From: Caenorhabditis elegans | Lineage: Eukaryota > Nematoda > Chromadorea > Rhabditida > Rhabditidae | DNA: 64,000 bases | NCBI RefSeq assembly: GCF_000002985.6 | Contig: NC_003281.10 | Coordinates: forward strand, 5,518,001-5,582,000 | Direction: 5' to 3' | Part shown: positions 28,615 through 50,749 of the stretch, piece by piece | Layout: each line of letters begins with the position of its first letter | Numbering within the stretch: the stretch's first letter is position 1 | Made by a program: the position numbers and the translations under genes | The notes under the pieces: model-generated | The model's input: only the letters and a program-made list of their open reading frames with translations | What the model was told of the DNA's origin: nothing | Database searches by the model: none

Positions 28615-29131
28615 ATGGGAGATCAGCAAGAACAATTTGCTATTTGCTAGAAATTGATAACACTTTTTGAAATATTTGAAAGGTAGTTTCTATGCTAGAT
28701 TTTTCTATGTTAATCTGAATTTTAACATTTTTCAATTGATTTTATGCAGTACCTGAAAGTGGTCAAAATTTTGGAGCCATCGAACGACGCTTCAATATTC
28801 CGCCATGCTACAAAACTCAAGATTCCTTACAAGCGTCTTTGGGCGGAGCTTGAGCACGGGTGTCATTGGAGCTTCAAACTTCTTGGCTTCCAATTCCAAA
28901 TGAATCATTCTTTCAACACATCACCTCCTTCTCAATAATTCCTTATCACTACTCTTTTTCCAACTGCTTACACGTTTTTATCGGTTATTTCTCTATTCCC
29001 CTTTCTCTCTCAGTTACTCCGGGTGTCTGTTCTCCACAGTTTTTGCAACAACTTGCGTGGTTTGACCATTGATTTTTTTTGCCTCTTGTTACTTTATTCT
29101 TGATTTAAGACAGGAACCGGGTTTATGGAAA

Positions 29132-32100
29132 ATGCCCAACGACTTGCCGTTGCTGCCTCCGAAGAATCAGCACAAACACTTGGATAAAACTATGATCTCA
29201 CTGCCGTCGGATTTCAGGTAAGGAATAAAAGTTGAGGATGTTATGTTAATCCGTACATTCGAATTGGAATGTATCTGCAAATTCGTTCTTGAAGAACATT
29301 AGTAGGTTAGCTTCAAGCGGGATTATGACATGTCGACGTTTTAGGCCCGAGAAAGAAGCGGAGTTCTTGCACTCTCCCCTCCCCCACACTCTCTAACCAA
29401 CCCATTTTTACAGTGTAATAACTTTCATCAAGATTTAGCCAATAGCTGATTGATTGTGCTGATTGTGCTTTTTTTAATTGATATAACATTTAGAAATGAG
29501 GAACATTTAGAAACATGAACAGTTTATTCAAAAATATTAGGCTTACAACACTCTACACTTATCTCATTACAACATTCTTTTATTATCATATTGACATCCA
29601 TAGACTGAAATTCCAAGTTTTAGAAATCAGAAACCTTGGAAACAAAACTTACCATTTTGCTAGGTAATTTAGCTGACACAGCTGGAACCGCCAACAATTC
29701 AGTCATGAAAATAATCAGTGATAGAAACAATAATGCAAAACTAGCATACATGTCAACTATGAATATTAAGTTTAAAATTGTTATGTAGTACCTAATCACA
29801 CGTGGACTAGCAACAATTGATAAAACATTGTTATATATTATAGGTACCAAGCGTTAAATCTTACACTATGGGCTATTGTCGTAAAAAATAAAATAAAATA
29901 ATACAAATCACGTTACCTGAAATTTTTTAAATTCTCAATTTTTTCGCAATTCGCCATTTTAATTGTTTAAAAAGATATGAGAGGAGGAGAGTTAAGACAC
30001 TCAGCTTCTCTGTACTCTCCCGTGCCTCCATACGTCTAAAACTTACAATTTTCATACGAATTAGTTTCTTACAATTAGTAGATTCGGAGACGAATTAGTT
30101 ACATTCGTATTAGTTTTACTCATTGTGTTTTAGGTTTTAAACAATCTATCATAGTCAATTTTTATATTACAGGCATTTGGCTCATGTCGGTCCAATGGGA
30201 TCATCGGAAATTGAAAATCTTCGGACGAGCGATAATGTGATTGATACGGTTAATGAAAGGTTTGTGATCTACAAGCATTACTTGAATTCAATGTGGATGA
30301 ATAAAGAATTCAGCAGCTACTACATAAGACCCTCCTCGTCGAATAGTACACTCCGATCGCAGAGAAAAGAAAAAGATGTAGGGAACTATTTAATTACTTT
30401 TCTCCAAAAAAGTTCAACTTTTCAGAGAGTTGGACTAGATGATGCTTTCCCATCAGCTTCAAAAAGTGAAGAAGAGGTTGAAGTTGTCAGAGGTTACGAG
30501 AATCAACCAACATCCCACCAATACATAAATATTGCTCCACCACGTCCGAGCAAGAAAAATTATAAGGCTCCAGCTCCCCCTACTCCTCCTCCACAGTGAG
30601 TATTTGTATGACATTTTCTAACAACACAGTTTTTGAATTAGTTTTTTACCTCAATTCCAAGAAGTACTTCCTTTAGAATTAAGTTTCTTACTGGCGCTTT
30701 CAAATTTGACAACTGAATCAAAAGTTGGTTGAGAATTAAACTTTCAGGAACAGCAAGCCGAATTTGATCTTCAACGCCCAAGACGACGAGGAGGAAACAT
30801 CAGAAATCTCAGAGCAACCTGTAGTTTTTCGGTATTTCTTGATTGGACCCTGAAGTTTAAAAATTTTTCAATTTTCAGGTCAATCTCCCACACTTCGAAT
30901 ATCTCAACACACATAGCTCCACCTCCAAAAATCCAAACCGCCGACCGAATCGTTGCACCGAAGCCTAACTCTCTGGTGATCGAAAGACCGGGTGATCTTG
31001 GTGGTGCTTTTAGTTTCGGTCTCGATGATTGCATTCCAATTGTTAAAAGTACACCACCTCTCAATACACTTTCTCCGTTGCATCGGCCTTTGGCAATCCC
31101 GAAGAATCAGGAGGAGACACCGATATTGAGTCCGGCGAGTCCGCCGGATGACTCGAATTATATGTCAACTATTCGGAGCACATCCGTTCAAGGGAGAAAG
31201 ATCTTGGATGAGCTTGACGATTGGTTGGATGACCTGGATGATCTCGATAGGGATCAATTATCCACAATCAGTACTGACGAATCGGGTTATCCGACGCTTG
31301 CACTAGAAAAAGATCGGGCTTTTATGAAGCATTTGGTGGAGAAGTATGAGTTGGGGGTAGCTCCAGAGACAATTAGACTTCGGAAGAAAAAAGGACCGGC
31401 TCCAAAAGCTCCAAGCCTCCCTCCAGACCTCTCCTCTCCAACATTCCAAGCTCCAGGATTTATTCCTGCGTTCTCCGCTCGGCCTGTGAGTATGCCTCCC
31501 AACCGACCACCTCCCTCATATGAAGCTCCAAGCTTTGATGCTCCCGAAGCTCCTGGTACAGTATTAATCAATGGAAGAGCCTTGACAAAGCAAAATGCGC
31601 TAGACCTCCGCTCAAGTGACGAAAGTGGAGTACCTCCTGCAATTGCCAGGTTCTTATATGATAAGAGGATCAAGTCAGCAACAATGCCAATGTCCATCGG
31701 AAGAATGACGTCTTCATCTGGGAACACGGATGTTTCCACTACCTCGTCAAGATCAAATGCAGATACTGTGTCAAGTATTCTGTCGACGGTTGGGGAGGAT
31801 GATGATGTGGAAGTTCTGAAAAGGGATCGGGAAGTTGAAGAAGAGTTTGTACCGCCCGTGCCAAAGCCGAGGAGCAGAAAGACGGTAAGCTTTCTTGTGT
31901 GATCCACAAGATCAGTTATGTAGGTGCAACATTAAGAGAGGAATTACGGAATTAAAGTATTACTTTCAACTTTTGAATCATATTTCTGACCATTTGATGA
32001 GTCACCATAAAATAGATATTTGTGAATCTGAATGAGAGGGGGGGGGGGCAAAAGTTTCAAGAACGGGTGCTCCTGAACCTAAACGATATTTGCTCCAATT

Positions 32101-50313: not shown

Positions 50314-50749
50314 TCAAGCGGTGGTTGGCTTCTGATTGTTAAGAAGAGCAGATGGACGAGCAAATGCACGTGGAGCAGCATCATCCTTATTCTTGTTTGA
50401 TCCCCAAGCCCAGACTGATGGATAGGCTGCAGCGGCTACGTATGGAGAATAAACTGATGGGTAGGCGTAGGCAGATGGAACATAGGCGGCCGAGTAGGAT
50501 GGGACAACGTATTGTTGATGGGATCCGACGATCATGGCGCAGAGAAGGACGGCGACGAAGCTGGAATTTGAATTTTAGGCCTGATTTTAGTTGAAGCCTA
50601 TTTCTAGGTATTCTGCTTAAGGTTTACATCAATCTTACGTCTAAACCTAAAATAAGCTTCTTGAGCATTAACCTAAGTCTAAGACTCAGCCTATGCCTTA
50701 GCCTTTCTAAGCCTAACTTAAAAAAGATGACTTACCACTTGGCGAACAT
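50314..50749 (-). CDS. Small secreted Tyr/Ala/Pro-rich protein
   Basis: Exon 50736-50749 (14 bases) encodes MFAK and part of Cys, ending TG|GTAAGT. Exon 50314-50560 follows AATTCCAG and runs to TGA; the whole is 86 residues. Residues 1-19 (MFAKCFVAVLLCAMIVGSH) form a signal peptide. The mature chain has repeated Y/A/P/S motifs (YVVPSY, YVPSAYAYP, YSPYVAAAAYP) and a polar end rich in Asn, Lys and Arg. Such composition suits an extracellular or cuticle-associated structural protein or a peptide precursor, but dibasic cleavage sites that would define neuropeptides are absent. AATAAA lies 83 bases after the stop. It stands alone, about 1.36 kb from mlc-3 and convergent with it. Confidence 0.75.

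Follow-up and report, generated by a model that had tools for sequence, protein, structure and literature searches.

The stretch of DNA analysed here, a window of 64,000 nucleotides, comes from chromosome III of C. elegans and corresponds to the F09F7 region. This assignment follows from the protein families of its open reading frames, from gene names in the literature and from an exact primer match. In Pfam searches of the window's open reading frames, matches were found to ECH_2 at 38 kb and to RNA polymerase Rpb2 domains at 40-41 kb; an EF-hand (47 kb) and a 2OG-Fe(II) oxygenase (36 kb) both matched below the cut-off. In the available text of the respective papers, F09F7.4 is a chromosome III gene for a hydroxyisobutyryl-CoA hydrolase (PMC5844317), F09F7.7 is NMAD-1 (PMC10815869, PMC10465613) and F09F7.8 is nspb-12 (PMC3597506). 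The published nspb-12 primers match exactly within the window.

A gene starting at 29132 on the plus strand gave a Pfam PBD/CRIB match of 21.5 bits, with a cut-off of 21.3. Its first coding piece (29132..29217, plus strand), read from the sequence and from Pfam, begins with MPNDLPLLPP and extends into the CRIB motif, of which it encodes the first half. Position and synteny, the motif and a paper whose accessible part describes F09F7.5 as a CRIB protein with no homologue in human or fly (PMC8847673) make F09F7.5 the most likely identity of this gene. The intron that follows (29218..30172, plus strand; 955 bp) has a donor of 8.1 bits and an acceptor of 10.6 bits and interrupts the CRIB motif after ISLPSDF (ISLPSDF / R / HLAHVG). 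When the intron was used as a query (29219-30172, common words skipped) against the worm's own genome of 100,286,401 bases in 7 contigs, it matched one genomic place, itself, and is therefore not a recognisable repeat. No relative of the host exon was found in collections of genome and viral contigs that are free of nematodes, a result without bearing on conservation. Its AT-rich middle is flanked by two islands of higher G+C content (29300-29400 and 29990-30050), which bear pyrimidine- or purine-rich runs (ctctcccctcccccacactctct; gagaggaggagag).

A candidate peptide gene on the opposite strand of the intron

Within this first intron, a sequence-only reading had proposed a complete secreted-peptide gene in antisense orientation. 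The proposed anatomy was recovered. The candidate (29751-29524, minus strand) lies inside the intron of the CRIB gene on the opposite strand, and two exons in phase, an intron of 48 bases, two Cys-Cys pairs and an AATAAA at the stop codon were read directly on the minus strand. Exon 1 (29653..29751, minus strand) comprises 99 nt or 33 codons and ends in phase 0. It carries the ATG, a hydrophobic signal-peptide-like stretch and the start of the mature peptide, and its translation is MYASFALLFLSLIIFMTELLAVPAVSAKLPSKM. The intron (29605..29652, minus strand; GTAAGTTT...TTTCAG) has the ends GTAAGTTTTG...GGAATTTCAG, and if it is retained, the frame runs into a TAA. The donor scores 9.2 bits, which equals or exceeds the donors of all 53 introns of the training set, and it is the best near the end of exon 1 (the next has 4.5 bits). 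The acceptor scores 6.9 bits, at the 23rd percentile of the same 53 introns, and is the best one less than 300 nt from the donor. Exon 2 (29524..29604, minus strand) contains 26 codons with the pattern CC-x6-CC, followed by the stop codon (SMDVNMIIKECCNEISVECCKPNIFE + TAA). The polyadenylation-signal-like AATAAA (29523..29528, minus strand) has the stop codon inside it, so a 3′ UTR using this signal would be very short. An AATAAA by the stop was also present in about 10% of simulated models with a signal peptide (82/822).

The leader passes our own hydrophobicity rule for signal peptides, which is not SignalP, with a core of 11 residues and a mean Kyte-Doolittle value of 3.05. Judged by eye, the leader could be cleaved after A21, A24 or A27. 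Cleavage after A27 gives a mature peptide of 32 residues, which agrees with the size proposed earlier, from a precursor of 59 residues; the net charge of the mature peptide is about -1. With a signal peptide predicted by this rule and a short precursor, the candidate has the traits of a small secreted-peptide gene.

Its antisense position is ordinary in C. elegans. The available text of one survey counts 567 opposite-nested protein-coding pairs in WS290, about 5% of protein-coding genes (PMC12274878), and another reports, in the part accessible, that gene overlaps in the worm fall about 12-fold short of expectation and that nested ones are favoured (PMC2330155). The location in an opposite-strand intron still lowers the weight for a gene, because much of the non-coding DNA lies in such positions, as against a few per cent of the genes.

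A strong 3′ splice-site-like sequence, TTAAAAAATTTCAG (29917..29930, minus strand; 12.1 bits), is found 165 nt upstream of the candidate's ATG and is possibly a trans-splice or 5′-UTR acceptor. Per kb of strand, the real window has 0.13 acceptors of this strength and simulated sequence has 0.064; at these rates, 0.03-0.06 would be expected in the 420 nt upstream of the candidate. The sequence GTAACG follows immediately, and the site is donor-like as well. Between this acceptor and the ATG, an upstream ORF of ten codons (29796..29828, minus strand; MFYQLLLVHV) would weaken translation of the candidate if it were part of a 5′ UTR. A rival acceptor at 29274, 378 nt downstream of the candidate's donor, scores 7.2 bits vs 6.9 bits and leads to a different second exon that lacks the Cys pairs.

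The good donor and the upstream acceptor, the rival acceptor, the upstream ORF and a poor codon usage (see below) would all fit a real antisense or nested transcript that is non-coding or has another product, such as exon 1 joined to another acceptor, in which case the peptide drawn here is not made. We regard this as quite improbable, since the 48-nt intron has the size typical of the worm and links two open stretches that are in phase, whereas the alternative needs an intron of 378 nt and overlaps an exon of the host. Moreover, Rfam gave no family at gathering score for 28900-30400; one sub-threshold match, to U1_yeast on the other strand, reached 17.5 bits vs the 80 needed.

Chance expectation and codon usage

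How often such a layout arises by chance was estimated with a fifth-order Markov model. For its training we used 389,544 non-coding positions in 264 kb of DNA, namely the window together with 20 chromosome III stretches of 10 kb each. Models were counted if they had two exons, an intron of 40-70 nt and 40-100 residues. At loose splice scores, 720 Mb of simulated strand yielded 53,408 models, 822 of which had a signal peptide. At least two mature cysteines were present in 255 of these and at least four in 23 (two of the 23 being splice variants of one place); AATAAA was added in three of the 23. When both splice scores had to reach those of the candidate, 293 simulated models were obtained, four with a signal peptide. 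Using the candidate's summed splice score instead, we found 17,219 models in 864 Mb of simulated strand; 259 had a signal peptide, 64 of these at least two cysteines and five at least four mature cysteines, and none of the five carried AATAAA. For a signal peptide with at least four mature cysteines, the chance rate per genome is 1.16 at the summed score (0.00074 per window) and 6.4 at loose scores.

The same scan of both strands of the real 264 kb gave 107 models at loose scores, the candidate being the one with a signal peptide. At the summed score, two of 61 real models had a signal peptide, the candidate and one in the stretch L015, and at least four mature cysteines were present in the candidate only. 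The layout of the candidate probably exceeds chance. The filters were picked after the candidate had been seen, and the genome-wide figure of about one is therefore the fairer one. As a control, we scanned ten loci that contain known exons of the insulin family, several of them from the same gene neighbourhoods. Signal-peptide models that had four or more cysteines were recovered at one of the ten loci with loose scores and at none with the summed score. The test is therefore strict on real genes too, few real peptide genes would pass it, and the low chance rate is a limited argument for a gene. The limits of the scans are also shown by nspb-12, which they missed because its first exon is 14 nt long.

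As to the protein-coding status of the candidate, the layout speaks for it and codon usage against it. A synonymous score per codon was derived from a table of 39 long ORFs (10,540 codons). The candidate scored -0.097 per codon. Coding pieces of 59 codons had a mean of 0.053 (sd 0.068), and three of 137 (2.2%) were as low as the candidate; simulated models had a mean of -0.023 (sd 0.060), and 10.9% of 1215 were as low or lower. The resulting likelihood ratio of about 6 favours non-coding. Under a second codon table the candidate was equalled or exceeded by 58% of 2608 simulated models, and under a third measure by 89% of 593; by all three schemes it lies inside or below the non-coding range. 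Exon 2 (-0.164) is worse than exon 1 (-0.045), and ATA accounts for three of the six Ile codons. Ten insulin-peptide stretches (-0.059 to 0.136) and nspb-12 (0.149) all scored above the candidate.

These results give considerable weight, somewhat short of an even chance, to the view that the candidate is a reading frame that arose by chance in the AT-rich DNA of the intron, with lucky splice sites and a hydrophobic start and with neither transcript nor peptide. In addition to codons in the non-coding range, this view accounts for the absence of relatives in the worm's own genome, Pfam and PDB, and a reader going through the whole genome would find the one or so such models (about six at the looser score) that chance provides. 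The rate of 0.0007 per window argues against it, as does that of 0.00001 to 0.0001 per intron when scaled to introns of the host's size, and with AATAAA the layout becomes rarer still (three cases in 720 Mb with loose scores, none in 864 Mb with the candidate's own).

Relatives and known peptide systems

Pfam returned no family for the candidate at E values up to 10, and no match was found in the PDB. A search of the worm's own genome with the 59-residue protein found no paralogue beyond one chance-level match, and exon 2 alone (26 residues) matched itself only. The chance-level match (C2:9330660-9330785; E 0.016, 36% identity) was rejected as a paralogue because its surroundings look like an intron of an unrelated gene between coding stretches.

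The insulin-like peptides of C. elegans (PF03488) resemble the candidate in being small and secreted and in carrying paired cysteines. Exon 2 is loosely A-chain-like (K-x-CC-x-E ... CC-x-P) and scored 6.0 bits with a profile of nine insulin A chains, a value that 117 of 3000 cysteine-keeping shuffles also reached. This likeness would be explained if the candidate were an insulin-like peptide gene, decayed or derived, that has kept a shortened A chain, but we consider such an origin very improbable. The likeness stands at about the 4% level of the shuffles and was looked for after it had been seen. In addition, the candidate has no B chain, and CC-x6-CC replaces the spacing of the A chains aligned here (CC-x3..5-C-x7..8-C), with the third A-chain cysteine absent. 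A match to the insulin profile was lacking among the Pfam results at E up to 10 as well. FLP and NLP neuropeptide precursors contain repeated peptides flanked by dibasic cleavage sites; the precursor of the candidate has no dibasic pair and does not belong to this group.

A relaxed scan gave no other strong small secreted two-exon model, and we therefore considered whether the candidate could be nspb-12 (F09F7.8). This was ruled out, as the published primers place nspb-12, a two-exon gene for a small secreted protein of 86 residues, near 50.3 kb (50314-50749, minus strand). A TATA-like box (gtataaaac) is seen upstream of nspb-12. According to the accessible parts of two papers, nspb-12 is a small secreted-peptide gene (PMC3597506, PMC9629831), and the window thus holds one such gene and, with the candidate, one such model. 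Unlike the candidate, nspb-12 has no CC pairs, shows good coding codon usage and encodes 86 residues. The own-genome search with the candidate gave no match at nspb-12, which argues against membership in nematode-specific peptide group B (NSPB). For F09F7.6, another gene of the region, the available text of PMC2895663 lists no signal peptide.

By inspection, the short mature peptide of the candidate has two Cys-Cys pairs in a CC-CC framework. In the parts of the literature at hand, this 'framework V' pattern is described for cone-snail T-superfamily peptides (PMC4278219, PMC7216822), whose precursors, like that of the candidate, are short, have a signal peptide and bear two Cys-Cys pairs towards the C-terminal end. 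The CC-CC pattern occurs in unrelated peptides and the likeness is one of cysteine pattern; nothing suggests kinship with cone-snail peptides or a venom function.

Possible expression and origin

Taking these data together, we see about an even chance that the candidate is a single-copy, possibly young, nested secreted-peptide gene. The layout supports a gene; the codon usage, the absent relatives, the strict filters and the position in an opposite-strand intron weaken the case, and the weights given to the readings are judgements. Of the earlier claims, the description as a complete gene holds for the anatomy and is called into question by the non-coding-like codons and the lack of a paralogue or family match. 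The layout was said to be unlikely by chance, which applies to a single window; about 1.2 such models are expected per genome, and in codon usage the candidate does not stand out from chance. The statement that the peptide has no named family agrees with the Pfam, PDB and own-genome searches.

If the candidate is such a gene, its transcription would start on the minus strand within 29752-30172, and the transcript would perhaps be trans-spliced at 29917. Splicing would remove the 48-nt intron, and the signal peptide would direct the 59-residue precursor into the secretory pathway. After a cut near A27, the mature peptide of about 32 residues may form two disulfides from its two Cys-Cys pairs, and it would be secreted and act extracellularly. 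The codon usage and the absence of relatives suggest weak expression or a recent origin.

The sequence-only reading had also raised coupled expression with the host, which has a precedent in the nested pair ceh-10/polq-1. There, according to the available text, the host transcript in neurons has an internal start and is devoid of the helicase domain (PMC12274878). As with the candidate, a short gene lies in an opposite-strand host intron; both genes of that pair are known and expressed (PMC12274878), whereas the nested gene here is a candidate read from the sequence. By analogy, a host transcript begun inside the intron would be without the first half of CRIB and would drop half of the GTPase-binding motif, because the intron interrupts it. 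It is conceivable, if unlikely, that a peptide gene was newly born in this Rho-effector intron and that its promoter also fires in the direction of the host, yielding a half-CRIB host protein, so that peptide expression tunes a GTPase effector. As part of this joint and unlikely scenario, intron DNA would have acquired a poly(A) signal, a sequence for a signal peptide and an intron that is efficiently spliced, while its codons are still non-coding-like.

If the candidate is untranscribed, it shows that chance can be expected to produce about one textbook-looking two-exon peptide gene in each worm genome. If it is transcribed, the best-studied worm genome would contain a further small, perhaps lineage-specific secreted peptide whose codons are still non-coding-like, and the candidate would be a test case for the birth of peptide genes in introns.
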